The notes beneath the pieces were generated by a model. The model was not told the origin of the DNA, ran no database searches, and saw only the letters and a list, made by a program, of their open reading frames with translations. A DNA stretch of 64,000 bases from Planctomycetota bacterium (GTDB taxonomy: Bacteria > Planctomycetota > Phycisphaerae > UBA1845 > UTPLA1): NCBI GenBank assembly GCA_016235815.1, contig JACRIM010000048.1, positions 62,001-126,000 of the forward strand, in the 5' to 3' direction. Made by a program: the position numbers and the translations under genes. Of this stretch, positions 5,558 through 53,495 are shown one piece after another. Every line of letters begins with the position of its first letter. Position 1 is the stretch's first letter.

Positions 5558-7426
5558 TTACGGCACCAACACATCCGTGAAGAGAATCACGTCCACACCG
5601 TTCACCTTGCCGTCGTGATTCATATCCGCGCGGCAGGATGGCTTGCCAATCAGGACAAGATTGACGAATCCCGCGATGTCGTTCGGTTGGATGAACCCAT
5701 TGCAGTTGATATCACCCGCAAGAATGCCGGGGCACGCCGGGCCTTCGCAATCATCGGGAATGGTGTTGCCGTTGCAGTCCGCCTCTCCGCATGAGTCGAT
5801 AAGCCCATTCGTATTGCAATCCAGACCGGGATTGCCGGCGATTTCACAGGTATCGGGAATCTGGTTCGCGTTGCAGTCAACGCTGAAGCCGGACCCAATG
5901 TCGCAGCTGTCGGGGATGTTGTTCCCGTTGCAATCCGGATCGGTGGCCGACGCAATGTCGCAACTATCCGGCTTGCCGTTGTGATTGCAGTCCGGAAGGC
6001 AGTTGCTCGTGCAAAAGAAGGGTCCGCCCGGCGCCGGGTTGCCCACCGGCAATTCGCAAACATCAAGCTTCCCGTTCCCGTTGCAATCGCGCGTCGGATT
6101 CGTCGTGATGTCACAAACATCAGGGATGCCGTTGCCGTTGCAATCCGGGTCGCAGACGTCCAGGTTTCCGTTGTTGTCGCAATCCAACGCTGGGTTCCCC
6201 TGAATCTCCTGCCAGTCAGGAATCGTATTGTTGTTGCAATCCGCGGCGGCCGGCGAAGGACCAAGAATCGTGACGGTCATGTTCGTCGGCACGCCCGGCT
6301 TGAAAAGGCCGAGGTTAATCTGCGCATTCGCAACCGGCGGCGTATTCACATCCACCCGAAAGTTGTAAAGCGAACCCCAGCGAATCGCGTTCGCATTGAC
6401 ATTCACACCGTGCGACTGCGTCGCCCATGTGAACTCTCCGGCGGCATACGACGACGACCAATCCGTCACCGAATACGGCTCACCACTGTGGCAGTTCACG
6501 TCGTGGAATCCCACGTTCTGTCGCGGTGTGTGCGATTCGAGCGGAATACCAAAGGTGCCGACGCTCCGGTCGGAATTGAGATTCTCCACCGCATACTCGT
6601 AACGCCAGAAACCATTGCCAAGCGCGGTGGCCTTCGCGGCGACTATGATTCGACCGTCTCCCGGCACGTCGGCATTGGCCATGGCCACGGAAGCGTCGTA
6701 ATCCTGCCACGCCTTGATGCCCGGCGAGTAAAGGACCGTGCTGCCGAAAACGCTCGGAACGAATGTAAAACTGCCCGGCGGAGATTCGCCAATCAGGATT
6801 CGAATATAGGATGCGTTGTTTGTCCCATTGCCGGCCGCGGCGTCATCCGCGCTCACGTAGTGCGCCTCGGCAAAGTACAACGCGCCCACGTTCAGCGAAG
6901 GAATCAAGTCCGCGTCTCGCACCTGAATCCGCCGGTCAATGTTGAGGTCGACCAGTGGCGGCGATGTGAACGGATACGGAAACACTCCCGTTGACGCATT
7001 CACATCCGACCTGGGACCCAACAAGTTCTGCTGCCCGTTAAGCCCCGCCGAATATGGATCCGAACACCCCGGAAACAAATAACTCGAATCCCCGTTCGGC
7101 TGCGTGCACAACTGACACAAACTCTCATTGGTGGACGCAAACCCGTGCTTCAGCCACGACATGCCGATCTGCTCGAACCGGCCATCCTTCAATCGATACA
7201 TATTCTGCGCAATGACGGGGTGCGCGCTGGTCGTCGCGATCCACGAGAGCGGCGCATCACCAAGGTTGCACGAGGTCGTCGCAATCGAATACGCGGTGAT
7301 GTCGCCAACCCGCGCCCATCGGCGAATGTCGTAAATCAGCGCAACGACCACGTCCGGCCCCGCCGCCGCGGAAACGCCGGGCAATGAGACAAGCGTAATC
7401 ACAATCAGGAAAATCCGGCGCGCCAA
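5558..7426 (-). CDS. Secreted protein with calcium-binding 'DCNxNxIPDxCD' repeats and C-terminal dockerin-like module
   Basis: A 622-residue exported protein. The N-terminal signal peptide ('RRIFLIVITLVSLPGVSAAA') leads into about 390 residues of unrecognised sequence. About nine short Asp/Asn/Cys repeats of the form 'DCNGNGIPDVCD' follow, resembling thrombospondin type-3 calcium-binding repeats. The last 55 residues contain two EF-hand-like loops ('GDINCNGFIQPNDI' and 'ADMNHDGKVNGVDV') in a dockerin-like pair. The start is TTG at 7426-7424 because GGAGGTGG ends a few bases upstream; a GTG 24 bases earlier lacks a site. No cohesin or enzyme domain is seen, so the role (surface or extracellular) is inferred only. 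Confidence 0.8.
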   Translation of the reverse strand: MARRIFLIVITLVSLPGVSAAAGPDVVVALIYDIRRWARVGDITAYSIATTSCNLGDAPLSWIATTSAHPVIAQNMYRLKDGRFEQIGMSWLKHGFASTNESLCQLCTQPNGDSSYLFPGCSDPYSAGLNGQQNLLGPRSDVNASTGVFPYPFTSPPLVDLNIDRRIQVRDADLIPSLNVGALYFAEAHYVSADDAAAGNGTNNASYIRILIGESPPGSFTFVPSVFGSTVLYSPGIKAWQDYDASVAMANADVPGDGRIIVAAKATALGNGFWRYEYAVENLNSDRSVGTFGIPLESHTPRQNVGFHDVNCHSGEPYSVTDWSSSYAAGEFTWATQSHGVNVNANAIRWGSLYNFRVDVNTPPVANAQINLGLFKPGVPTNMTVTILGPSPAAADCNNNTIPDWQEIQGNPALDCDNNGNLDVCDPDCNGNGIPDVCDITTNPTRDCNGNGKLDVCELPVGNPAPGGPFFCTSNCLPDCNHNGKPDSCDIASATDPDCNGNNIPDSCDIGSGFSVDCNANQIPDTCEIAGNPGLDCNTNGLIDSCGEADCNGNTIPDDCEGPACPGILAGDINCNGFIQPNDIAGFVNLVLIGKPSCRADMNHDGKVNGVDVILFTDVLVP

Positions 7427-35026: not shown

Positions 35027-35061
35027 AAGCCCCGGCCGAGAAATCGTCCGGGGCTTTTTTT
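35027..35061. terminator. Terminator between the thioredoxin-fusion gene and recG
   Basis: AAGCCCCGG (35027-35035) pairs with CCGGGGCTT (35048-35056), followed by a T run to 35061. The T run overlaps the recG stop codon (35060-35062). It serves the plus-strand gene; on the minus strand recG ends just before it. Confidence 0.85.
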
Positions 35062-37183
35062 ATCCAATCCCCGCCACCTGCAACATCTCAACATGCCGCG
35101 ACACCAACGCCGCCCGCAGCCCCTCGTGCTCCGCGCGACGCAAACCCGGGTCACCGCGCACGATCTGCCCCGCGTCGCGCTGCGCCAGCCGAAGCAGATC
35201 GGCGTCCTCGATCAAATCCGCCACCCGCAGCTCCGGCAATCCATGCTGCCGAAGACCGAGCATCTCGCCCGGACCGCGAATCCGCAAATCCTCCTCGGCG
35301 ACCTTGAATCCGTCCGTCGTCTTCGCCAGCACCGCCAGACGCTGATGCTCCGCCGCCGCGGGCGTCTCCGTCAGCAGAAAACAATGACTGCGATGCGCCC
35401 CGCGACCGACGCGCCCGCGAAGCTGATGCAACTGCGACAACCCAAACCGCTCGGCGTGTTCGATCACCATGCACGTCGCGTTCGGCACATCAATCCCCAC
35501 CTCGATCACCGTCGTCGCCACCAACACCGCGATCGTCCCCGCCGCGAATTCCCGCATCACCGTCGTCCGCTCTTCACTCTCCATCCGCCCATGCAGCAAA
35601 CCGACCGCGTGCCGCGAAAACACCCGCTGGCTCAGCCGCTTGAATTCCGTCGTCGCCGCCTTCGACTCCGATTTATCCGACTCATCGATCAACGGATACA
35701 CCACATACGCCTGCCGCCCCGCCTCCAATTCGCGGCGCACCGATTCCCACGCCGTCTCATGCCGCCCCGGCCCCATCACCTGCGTCGAGATCGGCGTCCG
35801 CCCCGGCGGCAATTCTTCAATCGTCGTCACATCCAGATCGCCGAAAACCGTCAACGCCAGCGTCCGCGGAATCGGCGTCGCCGTCATCACCAGATAGTGC
35901 GGCGCAGGCCCCTTGCTTCGGATCGTCGCCCGCTGCCTTACGCCGAAGCGATGCTGCTCATCAATCACCACAAGGCCAAGCCGTGCGAACGCCACATCCC
36001 CCTGAAGCAGCGCGTGCGTCCCGACGACAATGTCCATCTCGCCTTGCGATATCGATGCAAGCATTTCCTTCCGCTGCCGCGCCGGCATCCCGCCGACAAG
36101 CAGCCCATGCCGCACACGACTGCCCTCCAGATACGTCGCAATCGCCCGCGCATGTTGCTGCGCCAGCAATTCCGTCGGCGCCATGATCGCCACCTGGTGT
36201 TTATTCGCCACGGCCGTCAGCGCTGCATACAACGCCACCACCGTTTTTCCGCAACCGACATCACCCTGCAACAATCGATGCATCGGCCGCGTCGTCGCCA
36301 GATCCGTCGCAATCTCCTTGACCGCCCGATCCTGACCGGCCGTCAACCGAAATGGAAACCGCCGTCGAATCCTCTGATCGATCTGCGGAGTGCACGGCAT
36401 CGCAGCGGCCGTCTCCAGCGCCGTGCGATTCCGCCGCGCCAGCGTCACGGCGATCCGCATCAACAGCAGCTCGTCATAGGCCAGCCGCTTCCGCGCCGCC
36501 GCCAACTCACGCTCATCCGTCGGCCGATGAATCGCCCCCAGTGCCTGCCGCCTCGGGATAAGCCGACGCTGCCGCGCGAACTCCGGCGGATACCACTCAC
36601 GAACCTGCCCCACCATGCGATCCAGATTCGCCGCGATCAACCGTGCGATCAGCCTGCTCGGCACTTCCATCGTCGCGGGATACACCGGCTCCAGTCTCGG
36701 CGGCAATTTCTCATTCACCGGCTGCGCGTCACTGCCGAGAACCTCAAACCGCGGATTCACCATCTGCGGCAACTGCATGAACTCGGTGATCTTGCCCGTC
36801 GCGCGGATGTGCGTGCCCTGCTCCAGCTTGTCCAGCACATACTGCGCGTTGAACCACGTGAGCGAACATCGGCCCGTGTTATCCACAAGCGTCGCCGTCA
36901 CGCGACTGTTTCGCCGCCCACCCTGCGATCGAATCGCCGCGATGCGCCCGACGACCGTCGCAATCATCCCTTCATCGAGATTTTCGATGGTGCGAAACTC
37001 GTGCCGCTCATGCCGCGCAGGCAGGTAATCCAGCAGATTGCCGACGGTCTTGATGCCCAGTTTGGCGAACTGTTCGGCGCGGCGAGGCCCGACGCCCGGC
37101 AGGAATTGAATGCTGTCCTCCAACAAGACGTCCCGCGGCGCGCCCGCCCGAGTCGTCATGGAAGTGGACGCCGCGCCGCTCAT
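35060..37183 (-). CDS. recG: ATP-dependent DNA helicase RecG
   Basis: RecG remodels stalled replication forks and Holliday junctions. The 707-residue protein has the N-terminal 'FLPGVGPRRAEQFAKLG' helix-hairpin-helix and an OB-fold wedge domain (about 85-170). The superfamily 2 helicase core has 'GDVGCGKTVVAL' (Walker A), 'VIDEQHRFGV' (DExH-type box), 'MTATPIPRTLALT' and 'QLRGRVGRG' (motif VI). ATG 37183 overlaps the TGA of the upstream LysM gene (ATGA), so the two are translationally coupled. A longer frame to 37264 exists but would run through that gene. Confidence 0.95.
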   Translation of the reverse strand: MSGAASTSMTTRAGAPRDVLLEDSIQFLPGVGPRRAEQFAKLGIKTVGNLLDYLPARHERHEFRTIENLDEGMIATVVGRIAAIRSQGGRRNSRVTATLVDNTGRCSLTWFNAQYVLDKLEQGTHIRATGKITEFMQLPQMVNPRFEVLGSDAQPVNEKLPPRLEPVYPATMEVPSRLIARLIAANLDRMVGQVREWYPPEFARQRRLIPRRQALGAIHRPTDERELAAARKRLAYDELLLMRIAVTLARRNRTALETAAAMPCTPQIDQRIRRRFPFRLTAGQDRAVKEIATDLATTRPMHRLLQGDVGCGKTVVALYAALTAVANKHQVAIMAPTELLAQQHARAIATYLEGSRVRHGLLVGGMPARQRKEMLASISQGEMDIVVGTHALLQGDVAFARLGLVVIDEQHRFGVRQRATIRSKGPAPHYLVMTATPIPRTLALTVFGDLDVTTIEELPPGRTPISTQVMGPGRHETAWESVRRELEAGRQAYVVYPLIDESDKSESKAATTEFKRLSQRVFSRHAVGLLHGRMESEERTTVMREFAAGTIAVLVATTVIEVGIDVPNATCMVIEHAERFGLSQLHQLRGRVGRGAHRSHCFLLTETPAAAEHQRLAVLAKTTDGFKVAEEDLRIRGPGEMLGLRQHGLPELRVADLIEDADLLRLAQRDAGQIVRGDPGLRRAEHEGLRAALVSRHVEMLQVAGIG

Positions 37184-37521
37184 GGAATGATCAACTTCAT
37201 GCCGACCGGCAGATCGTTCGGATCGCGAAGTCGGCGCTTGTTGGCAAGCCAGATTCTCCGCCACTGCCCCCGGTCGTTGTAAAACCGCTCCGAGAGCAGC
37301 AGCAACGTCTCACCGGGCTGCACGACGTGAATGCGCCCCGGCATGTTCGCCGAATCCACGAACTCATCCGTCGGCGTCGTCGGTGGCGGCGGCGCAACCA
37401 CCTGCCGAACCGGAGCCGTCGTCGTCGTCTCCTTCACCGGCGGCTCGGTCTTGCTCTCCTCGTTACAACCCCAGAGCAGGCACAACGCGAGAAAGCTGAA
37501 ATGAACTCGGCGAGGCATCAT
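37180..37521 (-). CDS. LysM-domain lipoprotein
   Basis: A 113-residue protein with a signal peptide and lipobox ('LCLLWGC', Cys near residue 19), a Thr/Pro-rich linker and a C-terminal LysM domain (about 63-112). The domain shows 'IHVVQPGETLLLLSERFYND' and ends 'LPVGMKLIIP'. LysM binds the glycan chains of peptidoglycan, so this is probably an envelope protein facing the periplasm. Its stop overlaps the recG start. The pairing with a DNA helicase has no obvious functional meaning and may only reflect shared transcription. Confidence 0.85.
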   Translation of the reverse strand: MMPRRVHFSFLALCLLWGCNEESKTEPPVKETTTTAPVRQVVAPPPPTTPTDEFVDSANMPGRIHVVQPGETLLLLSERFYNDRGQWRRIWLANKRRLRDPNDLPVGMKLIIP

Positions 37522-37694
37522 GGTTAGTTACACAGCAACAAGTCGAGCATTTCCCCCGTGAATACCGGACCCATTCTCCCACCCGCCCCTGCGTTGTCAA
37601 CGCGACCCGCCCGCTCGCCGATGTAGGTACGCAGCCCGGGATCGGTCCGCGCGGAGAATCCGCGCCCATGCCGTCCGGCCGACGGAGTCACCGC

Positions 37695-40037
37695 ATGGCG
37701 CTTCCACTCTACATCATCACGCTTATCCTCAGTTCGTCGCTCCTCTTCTTCGTGCAGCCCATGGTCGGCAAAATGATTCTGCCGCTGCTCGGCGGCACAC
37801 CCGCCGTCTGGAACACCTGCATGGTCTTCTTCCAGGCGTGTCTGCTCGCGGGGTACGCCTACGCCCACGGCAGCGGCGCATGGCTCGGTGCCAGAAAGCA
37901 GGCCTGGCTGCACCTCACGTTGCTCGCTGTCCCGCTACTCGTGTTGCCCATCGGATTCGGCGCCGATGTCTCACCACCCGCCAGCGGCAACCCCGTGCTC
38001 TGGCTCCTCGTGCAACTCACCCTTTGCGCCGGACTTCCATTCTTCGTCGTGTCGGCCAGCGCCCCGCTTCTCCAAAAATGGTTCGCCCAGACCGGCCACC
38101 CGTCGGCGAAAGACCCATACTTCCTCTATGCCGCCAGCAACGTCGGCAGCCTCGGCGCACTCCTCGGCTATCCGCTGCTCGTCGAACCAAACATGGCGCT
38201 CGGCGCTCAGACCACCGCATGGTCGGTCGGCTATGGGCTGCTCGTCGTCGCGTTCATCTGTTGCGCGATCGCCTTGTGGCGGTCCAAGAGCAGCATCGCG
38301 ACACCGGACGCCGCACTTGATTCCTCGCCGCGCGTCTCCATGGGTTGGCCGCGACGCCTGCACTGGATCATCCTCGCCGCCGTGCCGTCGAGCCTCATGC
38401 TCGGCGTCACTACACACGTCACCACCAACGTTGCCGCCGTACCACTCCTCTGGGTCGTGCCGCTGGCGATCTATCTGCTCACATTCATCATGGTCTTCGC
38501 CGCACGCCCACCGATCTCGCATCGCGCCATGGTGCAGTCATTCCCGTTCGTCGTTGTCGTGCTCGGTCTGCTTTTCTTCGCCCCGCCGCAGGAGCTGGGC
38601 TGGTACGTCATCCCGATCCACCTCGGCGCATTCTTCGTGGCTGCGATGGTCTGCCACGGCGAACTAGCCCGCTGCCGACCCGGCACGCAGCACCTCACCG
38701 AATACTACTTGTGGATGTCCTTCGGCGGCGTCCTCGGTGGCCTCTTCAACGCCATCGTCGCCCCGCTCACATTCAACTCCATCGCCGAATACCCACTAGC
38801 CGTCGTCGCTGCCTGCATGTTGATGCCGCGCACCTCCGCGACTCCACCCTCAAGACTCAAGTCTCAGGACTCAAGACTCAGGTCTCAGGTCTCAAGACTC
38901 AGGTCTCAGGTCTCTCTCCTCGACTTCGCCATGCCCCTCGGCGTCGGCCTCATCGCCCTCGCCATCGTCACCGGCCTCAAGATGTCCGCCGTGCCGCTCA
39001 CCTGGCTCTCGCTGATGGCAGTCTTCTTCATCCCCGCGTTCCTCTCCTTCCAGTTCAAGGAGTCGCCCATCCGCTTCGGACTCGCCATCGGTGTCGTTCT
39101 TCTCGTCACCGCGTTCTACGCCGAATCGGGCAGCGGCGATGTGCTCGCCATCGAGCGAAACTTTTTCGGTGTGAAGAAGGTGATGTTCAGCCCCGACGGC
39201 CGCACGCGCCTCCTCGCCCACGGTACCACCAACCACGGATCACAGGCCGTCGACGCTGCGATGCAGGACGAGCCGCTCGCCTATTTCCACCGCCGCGGCC
39301 CGCTCGGCGATGTTTTCAAGACGATCGCCGATGAAGGATCGCGCCGCCCGGTCGGCATCATCGGCCTCGGTGTCGGTTCCATCGCCGCCTACGCCTCACC
39401 GAATCAGCAGTTCACCTATTACGAAATCGACCCCGCAGTCGAAGTCATGGCCCGCAACGAAACATTCTTCACATTCCTTTCGAAGTGTCGCGGCACCGTG
39501 GACGTCGTCCTTGGCGACGGCCGCCTCACCATCGCCCGCGCCCCCGACAAACACTTCGGCCTCATCATCCTCGATGCCTTCAGCTCCGACGCCATCCCGA
39601 CGCACCTGCTCTCGCTCGAAGCCATGAACGTTTATCTCTCCAAGCTCGCCGACGACGGCCTACTCGCCTTCCACATCTCCAACGGCTTCCTGAACCTCGA
39701 ACCCGTCGTCGCCCGCCTCGCCGATCAGGCGCATCTGGCCTGCATCAGCCGATCGGATCGTGGCGTGCGCCGGGATGAACTCGCCGACGGCCAGCTTGCA
39801 GCTCATTACGTGGTCATGTCGCGCATACCCGAGCGGCTCGCTGCGCTGGAGTCGAAACCGCGCTGGCATCGCTGCGAAACGTCGAAGGACGTGCCGGTAT
39901 GGACGGATCAATACTGTGACATCCTCGGCGTCCTGCGCCTGCCGCAGCCTGGCACCGAGCCTGCTCACATGGCGCAGCGACCGCCGCCGCGCGAACCATC
40001 ACGCGAGGACGACAGCGGCGAATTGAAGGTCAGATAA
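37695..40037 (+). CDS. Polytopic membrane protein with spermidine-synthase-like methyltransferase fold
   Basis: A 780-residue protein. About eight or more transmembrane helices occupy residues 1-380 ('LYIITLILSSSLLFFVQPMV', 'TCMVFFQACLLAGYAYAHG'), and a few more follow to about 485. The soluble C-terminal half has the Rossmann SAM-type motif 'VGIIGLGVGSIAAY', 'YYEIDPAVEVMARN', 'VVLGDGRLTIARAP' and 'LIILDAFSSDAIPTHLL', as in spermidine synthases. Fused membrane forms are common in bacteria and their substrate is unknown. A tandem heptamer array encodes residues about 385-406 ('RLKSQDSRLRSQVS'), inserted between membrane segments. Start ATG 37695 begins the hydrophobic N-terminus. Confidence 0.85.
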   Translation: MALPLYIITLILSSSLLFFVQPMVGKMILPLLGGTPAVWNTCMVFFQACLLAGYAYAHGSGAWLGARKQAWLHLTLLAVPLLVLPIGFGADVSPPASGNPVLWLLVQLTLCAGLPFFVVSASAPLLQKWFAQTGHPSAKDPYFLYAASNVGSLGALLGYPLLVEPNMALGAQTTAWSVGYGLLVVAFICCAIALWRSKSSIATPDAALDSSPRVSMGWPRRLHWIILAAVPSSLMLGVTTHVTTNVAAVPLLWVVPLAIYLLTFIMVFAARPPISHRAMVQSFPFVVVVLGLLFFAPPQELGWYVIPIHLGAFFVAAMVCHGELARCRPGTQHLTEYYLWMSFGGVLGGLFNAIVAPLTFNSIAEYPLAVVAACMLMPRTSATPPSRLKSQDSRLRSQVSRLRSQVSLLDFAMPLGVGLIALAIVTGLKMSAVPLTWLSLMAVFFIPAFLSFQFKESPIRFGLAIGVVLLVTAFYAESGSGDVLAIERNFFGVKKVMFSPDGRTRLLAHGTTNHGSQAVDAAMQDEPLAYFHRRGPLGDVFKTIADEGSRRPVGIIGLGVGSIAAYASPNQQFTYYEIDPAVEVMARNETFFTFLSKCRGTVDVVLGDGRLTIARAPDKHFGLIILDAFSSDAIPTHLLSLEAMNVYLSKLADDGLLAFHISNGFLNLEPVVARLADQAHLACISRSDRGVRRDELADGQLAAHYVVMSRIPERLAALESKPRWHRCETSKDVPVWTDQYCDILGVLRLPQPGTEPAHMAQRPPPREPSREDDSGELKVR
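38849..38911 (+). repeat. Heptamer tandem array CTCARRN (9 units) inside a coding region
   Basis: Nine contiguous 7-base units: CTCAAGA, CTCAAGT, CTCAGGA, CTCAAGA, CTCAGGT, CTCAGGT, CTCAAGA, CTCAGGT, CTCAGGT. The total is 63 bases, exactly 21 codons, so the reading frame of the membrane spermidine-synthase-like gene is kept. The same units recur at 48305-48381, 53229-53263 and 53352-53379, always in this orientation. Confidence 0.9.
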
Positions 40038-48304: not shown

Positions 48305-48381
48305 CTCAAGCCTCAAGCCTCAAGCCTCAAGCCTCAGAACTCAGGTCTCAGGACTCAAGACTCAAGACTCAGGTCTCAAGA
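48305..48381 (+). repeat. Heptamer tandem array CTCARRN (11 units)
   Basis: Eleven contiguous 7-base units, beginning with four CTCAAGC, then CTCAGAA, CTCAGGT, CTCAGGA, CTCAAGA twice, CTCAGGT and CTCAAGA. It fills the space between the GT4 start and the pyk stop codon and ends 6 bases before the pyk coding end. The first four identical units suggest recent expansion. Confidence 0.9.
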
Positions 48382-50317: not shown

Positions 50318-52663
50318 GTGTTCGTCATCACGCATTCGCATCGCCTCCTTTCGGCCCGCGCCCTCGTCGCGATCGCCGCCGCATTCTGGTTCGCGGCCAA
50401 TCCCACATCCTCCCTCTCAGAAGAACTGCAAAACCGCCAGGCCCCCGGCAACACACCCGAAGGACTTGCCGCCTCCGATTGGTCGAGCATCCGCGCCGCC
50501 TACGAATCCAATCGCCACAATGCCTTCGCAGCCGAGGGCGGCTTCGTCGCCCGCAATCCCGGCCAGCAATGGCGAACCCGTTTCGACGGGCGAGGCTTCA
50601 TAACATCGCCCGATTCCGGCGGCTGGTCGTGGGGATTGGAACTGGTGAGCTACGACCGCGGCGATCAGAGCCGCGACCGTGAGGGAGTGGGTTCGCAATC
50701 GCGGTGTATGGAGACAAATGGCAATCGCGTGTCGTACGAGTGGGACGACACACTCACCGAGTGGTACATCAACGACCCACGCGGCCTCGAACACGGCTAC
50801 ACCGTGCACCAGCGGCCGAAGGGCGCCGGCGACCGGTTGTCCCTGACTCTGGCCGTCCGAGGTGGCTTGCGCCCAAACGTGAGCAACCACGGCCGCGACG
50901 TGGCGTTCGTGAATGCGAACGGCGCGGCGGTGGTGAACTACAACGGTCTGACGGTGCTGGATGCCGACGGCGTCGCGCTGCCTGCGTGGTTAGAAGCGGC
51001 GGGCGACGGCCTGCGCCTGAATGTGGACGATCGCAAGGCGCGCTACCCGCTGACGGTCGACCCCATCGCCCAACAGGCCTACCTCAAGGCATCAAATACC
51101 GGGGCGAGCGACTACTTTGGCTGCTCCGTGGCCATGTCGGGCGACACAGTGGTGGTCGGGGCATATGGCGAGGCCAGCAACGCCACGGGCGTGAACGGCA
51201 ATCAGGCCAACAACGGTGCCACAAATTCCGGCGCGGTGTATGTCTTCGTACGCAGCGGCGAAGTCTGGAGCCAGCAGGCCTACCTCAAGGCCTCGAACAC
51301 GAGCGAGAGTGACTACTTCGGCTTGTCGCTGGCTGCAAGCGGCGACACCGTGGTGATCGGGGCATATCTCGAAGACAGCAACGCTACGGGCGTGAATGGT
51401 AATCATGCCGACAACAGCGCCACGAATTCCGGCGCTGTGTATGTTTTCGTCCGTAACGGCACAACTTGGAGCCAGCAAGCCTACCTAAAGGCGTCGAACA
51501 CCGGTGCCTTCGACAACTTTGGCAATTGGGTGGCCGTATCGGGCGACACGGTGGTGGTCGGAGCGTATGGCGAAGACAGCAGCGCTACGGGCGTGAACGG
51601 CAACCAAGCCGACAACAGTGCGGATAATTCAGGTGCTGCGTACATCTTCGTCCGCAGTGGTACGACTTGGAGCCAGCAGGCGTACCTCAAGGCGTCGAAC
51701 ACTGGTGTGAGTGACCTTTTCGGCTTGTCAGTGGCCGTGTCAGGCGATTCGGTGGTGATCGGTGCGTATAGCGAGGACAGCAACGCCACGGGCGTGAATG
51801 GCAACCAGGCCGACAACAGCACTGCAAATTCCGGCGCTGCGTACGTCTTCGTCCGCAGCGGCACGACCTGGAACCAGCAAGCGTATCTCAAAGCATCAAA
51901 CACCGGCGCTGACGACGAATTTGGCAGGTTGTTGGCTGTGTCGGGCGACACGGTCGTGGTCGCGTCGTATGCCGAGGACAGCAACGCCACGGGCGTGGAC
52001 GGTATCCAGACCGACAACAGTGCGTCTGCGGCCGGCGCGGCTTACGTCTTCGTACGCAGCGGGACGACCTGGGGCCAGCAGGCTTATCTCAAGGCGTCGA
52101 ACACAGATGCAGGCGATTTCTTCGGAGTCTCGGTGGCCGTGTCCGGCGACACGATCGTGGTCGGGGCGAATCAGGAAGACAGCAACGCCACGGGCGTGGA
52201 TGGCAACCAGACCGACAACAGTGCTGCCAATTCCGGCGCGGCGTACATCTTTGTGCGTAACGGCACGACTTGGAGTCAGCGGGCCTACCTCAAGGCATCA
52301 AATACCGAACTGGGCGACTTCTTCGGCGTCTCGGTGGCCGTGTCAGGTGACGCGGTGGTAGTCGGGGCGTATCAAGAGGACAGTAGCGCCACAGGAGTGA
52401 ACGGAAACCAGGCAGACAACAGTGCCCTAAAGTCCGGCTCGGCGTATGCCTTCAACGGCGTAGGTTGTCCAACCTTGGGCAACATGAACTGCAACTGCGC
52501 ACTGGACCCACTCGACATCGACGCATTCGTCCAAGCCCTACTCGACCCCATCGACTATGCGACAACCCACCCAACCTGCAACATCCTCCGCGGCGACATG
52601 CAACCCGACGGCAACGTCGACGGCGCCGACATCCAGGGCTTCATCAACCTCCTGTTTCCCTGA
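50318..52663 (+). CDS. Secreted seven-bladed FG-GAP (integrin-like propeller) protein with dockerin-like C-terminus
   Basis: A 781-residue exported protein. GTG 50318 follows AAAAGGAG by 7 bases; ATG 50300 is in frame but contains that site. A signal peptide (about 1-35) leads into a Trp-rich domain. Seven near-identical repeats of about 67 residues follow, each starting 'QAYLKASNT', then 'DYFG', 'SGDTVVVGAY' and 'GAVYVFVR'. This matches FG-GAP repeats of integrin-type beta-propellers, and seven copies would close one propeller. Two dockerin-like loops end the protein ('NCNCALDPLDIDAFV', 'GDMQPDGNVDGADIQGFI'). A surface adhesion or scaffolding role is inferred. Confidence 0.85.
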   Translation: MFVITHSHRLLSARALVAIAAAFWFAANPTSSLSEELQNRQAPGNTPEGLAASDWSSIRAAYESNRHNAFAAEGGFVARNPGQQWRTRFDGRGFITSPDSGGWSWGLELVSYDRGDQSRDREGVGSQSRCMETNGNRVSYEWDDTLTEWYINDPRGLEHGYTVHQRPKGAGDRLSLTLAVRGGLRPNVSNHGRDVAFVNANGAAVVNYNGLTVLDADGVALPAWLEAAGDGLRLNVDDRKARYPLTVDPIAQQAYLKASNTGASDYFGCSVAMSGDTVVVGAYGEASNATGVNGNQANNGATNSGAVYVFVRSGEVWSQQAYLKASNTSESDYFGLSLAASGDTVVIGAYLEDSNATGVNGNHADNSATNSGAVYVFVRNGTTWSQQAYLKASNTGAFDNFGNWVAVSGDTVVVGAYGEDSSATGVNGNQADNSADNSGAAYIFVRSGTTWSQQAYLKASNTGVSDLFGLSVAVSGDSVVIGAYSEDSNATGVNGNQADNSTANSGAAYVFVRSGTTWNQQAYLKASNTGADDEFGRLLAVSGDTVVVASYAEDSNATGVDGIQTDNSASAAGAAYVFVRSGTTWGQQAYLKASNTDAGDFFGVSVAVSGDTIVVGANQEDSNATGVDGNQTDNSAANSGAAYIFVRNGTTWSQRAYLKASNTELGDFFGVSVAVSGDAVVVGAYQEDSSATGVNGNQADNSALKSGSAYAFNGVGCPTLGNMNCNCALDPLDIDAFVQALLDPIDYATTHPTCNILRGDMQPDGNVDGADIQGFINLLFP
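51071..52448 (+). repeat. Seven tandem ~200-bp coding repeats (FG-GAP units)
   Basis: Seven head-to-tail copies of a roughly 200-base unit within the FG-GAP gene, recognisable by the recurring CTCAAGGC-TCAAACAC-type segment and by 'SGDTVVVGAY' in translation. Similarity at DNA level suggests recent duplication or gene conversion between units. Confidence 0.8.
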
Positions 52664-52709: not shown

Positions 52710-52741
52710 TTTCGACTTTTCGACGTTTCGATTTTTCGACT
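52710..52741 (+). repeat. Octamer tandem array TTTCGANN (4 units)
   Basis: TTTCGACT, TTTCGACG, TTTCGATT and TTTCGACT follow each other directly, then a partial TTTCC unit. It opens the repeat mosaic downstream of the FG-GAP gene. Confidence 0.8.
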
Positions 52742-52810
52742 TTTCCCCTTACCCCAACCCGCGCCCGGGCCACGACTTACGACCACAAAAAAAATAACCT
52801 GCAAATCCCC

Positions 52811-52886: not shown

Positions 52887-53495
52887 ATGATCCGCGCCCA
52901 AGTATATGCCGGCCGTTGCGCAGCAACCGTACTCTCCCCCTGGACCCTCAGCCCCTTGATCCCTTGGACCCCCGATCCCCCGGCCCCCAATTCCCGAGTC
53001 TCCGGAGATGTACGCCGGCAAACGCCAGCAAACGACACCTGTTTTCTCAATCCGCCTATCAAATTGCCGCAATTACAACCCCACCCCCGGCGTCGCGCAG
53101 CGACCCCTTCCGCCCCTCAGTGCCTCAGTGCCGCAGTTTACCCTCCGCGGCGGGGGCCTCAGTGCCTTTGTGCCTTCCTCTGTTCCCTGTCGCAGACCCG
53201 ACCCGGCGGGTTCCCCGTTCCCTCTTCCCTCAGGCCTCAAGACTCAGGACTCAGGACTCAAGACTTTTTTGCGGCCTTTTGCGGTCTTTTGCACCAATTT
53301 GCGGGGGGATTTTTTGAAAAGCCGCGCAGCGCAGCGACCAGCCTCCTGCGCCTCAAGACTCAGGACTCAAGCCTCAGGACCTCCTCACCCCCGGGCGCAA
53401 AAAAAGCCCCAGGAGTCTCACTCCCGGGGCCTTCAGAGTTTGCGATCAAGATTCCGTCCGCGTCGAACTACGCCCGCGGATGGCTGTTGTCGTAG
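52887..53495 (+). CDS. Doubtful 202-codon frame composed of tandem repeats
   Basis: ATG 52887 has a near-perfect ribosome-binding site (AAAGGAGG, 6 bases upstream) and a promoter-like element further up. The frame stays open through several repeat arrays and overlaps the 3' end of the recombinase gene. The predicted protein is low-complexity ('LRPQDSGLRTQDFF', 'LRLKTQDSSLRTSS') with no family. The other two plus-strand frames are also open for long stretches here, so openness proves little. It may be the intact 5' end of a gene whose body has been replaced by repeats. Confidence 0.25.
   Translation: MIRAQVYAGRCAATVLSPWTLSPLIPWTPDPPAPNSRVSGDVRRQTPANDTCFLNPPIKLPQLQPHPRRRAATPSAPQCLSAAVYPPRRGPQCLCAFLCSLSQTRPGGFPVPSSLRPQDSGLRTQDFFAAFCGLLHQFAGGFFEKPRSAATSLLRLKTQDSSLRTSSPPGAKKAPGVSLPGPSEFAIKIPSASNYARGWLLS
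52936..52995 (+). repeat. Imperfect 7-9-base tandem array (CCCCTTGAYC-like)
   Basis: Successive variants of a C-rich unit: CCCTGGACC, CCCCTTGATC, CCTTGGACC, CCCGATC, CCCCGGCC, CCCAATT. Unit length drifts between 7 and 10 bases, so this family is more decayed than its neighbours. Confidence 0.6.
53113..53191 (+). repeat. Octamer tandem array GTGCCTNN, second locus
   Basis: GTGCCTCA and GTGCCGCA, then after about 26 bases GTGCCTTT and GTGCCTTC, ending with TGTTCCCTGT. The same unit and the same TGTTCCCTGT end occur in the selA-apgM spacer (25171-25262). Confidence 0.7.
53229..53263 (+). repeat. Heptamer tandem array CTCARRN (5 units)
   Basis: CTCAGGC, CTCAAGA, CTCAGGA, CTCAGGA, CTCAAGA in direct succession, followed at once by a T run and the TTTTGCGG array. 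Confidence 0.9.
53266..53310 (+). repeat. Decamer tandem array TTTTGCGGYC
   Basis: TTTTGCGGCC, TTTTGCGGTC, TTTTGCACCA and a final partial ATTTGCGGGG make about four 10-base units. Confidence 0.7.
53352..53379 (+). repeat. Heptamer tandem array CTCARRN (4 units)
   Basis: CTCAAGA, CTCAGGA, CTCAAGC, CTCAGGA in direct succession, in the same orientation as the other CTCARRN arrays. Confidence 0.88.
53399..53430 (-). terminator. Rho-independent terminator of the recombinase gene
   Basis: On the minus strand an 11-bp stem (arms 53420-53430 and 53406-53416, one G-U pair, loop of 3) is followed by seven T. It lies 38 bases past the recombinase stop codon. Confidence 0.85.

Follow-up and report, generated by a model that had tools for sequence, protein, structure and literature searches.

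The heptanucleotide array that we found within a gene for a fused membrane enzyme is probably one copy of a dispersed, spreading (CTCARRN)n repeat that has been tolerated in a reading frame, and the CTCARRN family as a whole is most likely a tolerated selfish repeat rather than a switch. The array is located in the window, by which we mean the whole stretch of 64,000 nucleotides that was analysed. Its nine units amount to 63 nt, or 21 codons, lie wholly within the host open reading frame, and encode S-RLKSQDS-RLRSQVS-RLRSQVS, that is, three RLxSQxS heptapeptides. The host protein matches the NCBIfam model MFS_SpdSyn (NF037959) above its cut-off, a match to fused MFS/spermidine synthase. According to a codon-usage score, for which the long frames of this genome served as training set, the 5' and 3' flanks of the array are both coding and share the same frame. 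In a structure model of the host protein, built from a 25-sequence alignment and having a mean pLDDT of 85, the array residues form a loop with pLDDT values below 50 between predicted helices 374-384 and 418-439, and they are predicted to be disordered. Sequence, coding flanks and model together bear out the preliminary description, in which nine 7-base units were placed in frame between membrane segments.

Coordinates of the host gene and of the CTCARRN arrays in the window
Feature	Positions	Strand	Basis
Host gene, 789 aa: membrane part with multiple helices, then a spermidine-synthase-like domain (residues 472-678)	37668..40037	+	Open frame, NF037959, coding score, model
Nine-unit CTCARRN array, in frame, residues 394-414	38849..38911	+	Sequence; structure-model loop
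CTCCACC, possible decayed tenth unit	38842..38848	+	Sequence; inference
Eleven-unit CTCARRN array, flanks without coding signal	48305..48380	+	Pattern search, flank coding score
Five-unit CTCARRN array, non-coding, with TTTTGCGGCC repeats on its 3' side	53229..53262	+	Pattern search, flank coding score
Four-unit CTCARRN array, non-coding	53352..53378	+	Pattern search, flank coding score

Several lines of evidence show that the array is not an isolated feature. Firstly, the window contains 25 matches to the two-unit pattern, where shuffles give 0.04 on average, and the three other arrays listed in the table lack coding signal, in agreement with the earlier statement that the same unit is non-coding elsewhere. 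Secondly, the genome from which the window derives (4.58 Mb, draft) contains about 85 CTCARRN arrays of 2 to 33 units, as listed by end-pattern searches, so that the earlier proposal of a spreading sequence tolerated in a reading frame also holds. By the flank coding score, 37 of 84 arrays are clearly non-coding, and several contigs of this genome end near arrays. The units include CTCAAGA, CTCAGGA, CTCAAGC and CTCAGGT, and the arrays share their edges: a C, often GCGC, usually stands before them, and NCT usually comes next after the last unit (C in 73 and T in 63 of 84). Thirdly, at least one four-unit match is present in 8 of the 17 genomes of the same family, the genome studied here included, and a six-unit match in 6 of the 101 genomes of the class, with 139 such matches in this genome alone, so that long arrays are an exception within the class. 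In a genome of a related genus (G001), four-unit matches were used to sample 30 arrays. Of these, 27 are exactly four units long, whether coding or not, and nearly all of those examined consist of the same unit sequences. This genome has no six-unit match, and a whole-genome search with the two-unit pattern gave no run longer than four units among the first hundred matches listed. The four-unit pattern also occurs in 59 stretches of viral contigs (L208-L266), which may reflect host DNA or else genuine carriage by phages.

Other repeats were observed near the arrays. Decamer repeats of the TTTTGCGGCC type lie directly 3' of many non-coding arrays (for example at window positions 53267-53292), and TTCCCCG-like heptamers are often found 5' of such arrays. 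A short tandem repeat with a unit of 8 nt, TTTCGACT, is present at 52710-52745, and related TTTCGAC sequences are located upstream of several CTCARRN arrays. The window also contains a 201-bp tandem repeat in about seven copies (51070-52453) and a 729-aa open frame (35093-37282, +) antisense to a RecG-like helicase open reading frame (35060-37264, -), which is probably a codon-bias artefact. Shared repeats and palindromes beside arrays (GGTCCGC..GCGGACC and CCGCC..GGCGG) suggested a transposase-driven element; Y1 transposases are encoded in the genome, but no consistent link between them and the arrays emerged, and we dropped this candidate.

How can such a sequence be accommodated in genes? 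In all 4096 three-unit combinations the CTCARR strand is free of stop codons in every frame, and the opposite strand contains stops in all three frames. Consistent with this, the arrays judged to be coding by the flank score alone (14 in the genome studied here and 10 in G001, at 21 loci of the two genomes) comprise 24 in the sense and none in the antisense orientation. It should be noted that an open frame was not demanded of arrays in the 'coding antisense' class, and the lack of members is therefore no product of the definition. The sense-only placement is thus explained by the stop-free nature of one strand and by the stops in all frames of the other. In the case of the window gene, tolerance would be further helped by the hydrophilic and probably flexible nature of the heptapeptide and by its position in a loop between membrane helices; the peptide itself would then be neutral.

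The proteins that carry in-frame arrays are diverse. They include MutL and UvrA (three arrays each), RadA, SMC, the delta' subunit of DNA polymerase III (HolB), an aminotransferase, one S9 and one M48 peptidase, two O-antigen-ligase-like proteins, a 3-beta-HSD/epimerase-type protein and an FtsX-like permease. The UvrA concerned is a 1726-aa protein with extra UvrA-like parts, and the SMC array lies just before the hinge. Any enrichment for DNA repair genes among the hosts would be a post hoc observation, and we do not claim one. Since the peptide recurs in many proteins as a loop or linker, and about five of these proteins act in DNA replication or repair, the heptapeptide might be seen as a functional module under selection that serves repeatedly as a linker or binding motif. 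Against this stand the large share of clearly non-coding arrays and the predicted disorder of the segment, and we consider such a role highly improbable.

The preliminary description also regarded the array as an insertion, and alignments of several host genes agree with this. MutL proteins of 16 and RadA proteins of 13 other genomes of the family contain the array sequence in no case, which identifies the arrays in these genes as insertions. The mutL gene (L118:5432-7582, -) has arrays of about 7, 10 and 3 units at 7130-7177, 6141-6209 and 5646-5665, respectively. At the third site almost all relatives are without any insert, and at the second the linker is variable in all aligned relatives. 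The RadA insert has about 31 residues; most relatives have none at this site, and two have unrelated inserts. In solved relatives, conserved segments flank the positions of the first MutL insert and of the RadA insert. As for the window gene, no other genome of the family carries it, and accordingly no exact empty site was found in DNA. Its relatives from other bacteria (about 39-54% identical) lack the array and have a shorter or unrelated loop at this position; relative to them, the window array is an insertion in a variable loop.

One of these relatives, L005 (gene 325-2568), has a heptamer array of another sequence, (AGAAAGY)n, at this loop between membrane helices: 22 of 24 bases match at a lag of 7, a score reached by 0 of 5000 shuffles. 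In L003, a near relative of L005, the loop is shorter by exactly 21 nt, i.e. three units. At least two lineages have thus accommodated heptamer arrays, of differing sequence, in this loop. A convincing period-7 signal among relatives of the host gene is confined to L005, together with L003; that of L041 is weak and was discarded, and other lags score similarly in other loops. These observations could be read to mean that slippage at a CTCA-rich seed, in a fast-evolving loop, built up the window array on the spot without any mobile or copying event, and that the other arrays arose independently. However, the same degenerate unit with shared edges occurs at about 85 places, and the arrays examined in G001 are nearly uniform in both length and unit sequence. 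Independent seeds would not yield one consensus, and we therefore regard growth in place as unlikely, and dispersal of a spreading repeat as the better account of the window array.

The number of units is labile. At all six site pairs of this genome that share both flanks it differs between the two members (7/5, 3/10, 8/22, 4/5, 2/4 and 8/4). The 4/5 pair (L117:3995-4021 and L118:3985-4018) belongs to two copies of a gene that share 91% identity over 1.1 kb, and the difference shifts the frame: in the four-unit copy an ATG with a Shine-Dalgarno-like sequence reads through to a protein of 358 aa, whereas in the other copy the fifth unit takes the upstream ATG out of the frame of the gene body. 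This bears on the possibility, already raised in the preliminary description, that the array acts as a phase-variable on/off switch, in which gain or loss of units by slippage would toggle the C-terminal spermidine-synthase-like domain and cells would profit from the resulting mixture. As in contingency loci, the repeat lies in frame and has a unit, 7 nt, that is not a multiple of three; the addition or removal of one or two units in the window gene was computed to truncate the protein to about 446-557 aa, with the stop falling ahead of the synthase-like domain or inside it. The arithmetic of the frame shift, the differing unit numbers of all six pairs and the altered frame of the duplicated gene, which is the predicted effect at another locus, speak for this part of the proposal.

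On the other hand, coding arrays favour lengths that are neutral to the frame. Taking the element as 7n+2 nt, so that n = 1 mod 3 is neutral, a neutral length is seen in 10 of 12 coding and in 8 of 28 non-coding arrays of at least three units (Fisher p = 0.002), a comparison in which the coding arrays number only 12 and some of the non-coding arrays are duplicates of one another. The window array, with nine strict units, follows this rule only if the adjoining CTCCACC, possibly a decayed unit, is included, a post hoc count that gives n = 10 (1 mod 3). Such a bias suggests that frame shifts are selected against and does not resemble a programmed switch. It should be noted that frame selection alone cannot explain the four-unit preference in G001, since that preference also applies to non-coding arrays. 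Two further points argue against a switch: the hosts are mostly housekeeping proteins, unlike the surface structures that contingency loci typically encode, and the units of the array are degenerate rather than identical, which usually would lower slippage. Taken together, we consider a programmed switch quite unlikely.

Our preferred explanation, a spreading repeat tolerated in frame, would operate as follows. The repeat would have the form (CTCARRN)n, usually with C (often GCGC) before it and NCT at its end. Copies in the opposite orientation would stop all frames, and none is seen in genes; copies whose total length keeps the frame would survive there. After arrival, the number of units would change, probably by slippage or recombination, and most of the lengths surviving within genes would be frame-neutral. 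A more specific and rather unlikely version is that a coding cassette of roughly 30 bp, (CTCARRN)4CT, comprising ten codons and therefore frame-neutral, spreads by copying and adds the same flexible peptide to essential proteins; in genes such as the mutL gene described here it would now be growing unit by unit, so that repair genes could be switched by frame.

CTCARRN belongs with the known heptanucleotide repeats, in an unusually protein-invading form. Like other dispersed heptanucleotide tandem repeats (long simple sequence repeats), it occupies many loci, far above chance, and varies in unit number at paralogous pairs. The TAACTGA direct repeats of marine Beggiatoaceae are likewise dispersed over many loci per genome (MacGregor 2015, PMC4679880), and they share with CTCARRN one orientation that stops all frames and an open orientation that is found inside open reading frames. 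However, their unit sequence is different, and they are mostly located just upstream of start codons, with few cases in open reading frames, mainly at protein ends, whereas CTCARRN arrays lie in the interior of many conserved enzymes. The degenerate GGGAATC and GGGGAYT heptamers of Xanthomonas and Nostoc, present as 2-26 units at many loci (PMC4692102), resemble CTCARRN in their preference for four units and in differing in length between close relatives. These heptamers are G-rich, are under-represented in coding regions, and have a G-quadruplex explanation for their four units; G runs of this kind are absent from CTCARRN, although four units are preferred in G001 too. As selfish DNA, the palindromic elements of Rickettsia have entered many unrelated protein genes in frame and add a peptide that is compatible with protein function (Ogata 2000, reviewed in PMC10969869). 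CTCARRN shares the in-frame insertion into unrelated protein genes, but it is a simple, direct tandem heptamer repeat and not a palindrome of about 150 bp. Finally, the Nostoc tRNALeu intron contains a class II heptanucleotide repeat, NNTGAGT, which likewise varies in unit number but forms an RNA stem in this single intron (PMC4476775). The reverse complement of CTCARRA, TYYTGAG, fits this repeat in register, a likeness that might be coincidental for so short a motif.

Heptamer repeats have long been known in bacteria and are usually described as intergenic, whereas CTCARRN has entered the interior of many conserved proteins. This behaviour has a simple reason at the level of the genetic code, namely that one strand never stops, and it has left a measurable trace of frame selection. 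A frame shift at an array in mutL would remove mismatch repair. The movement of the repeat, and its possible switching, can thereby be tested directly by comparing sister strains.
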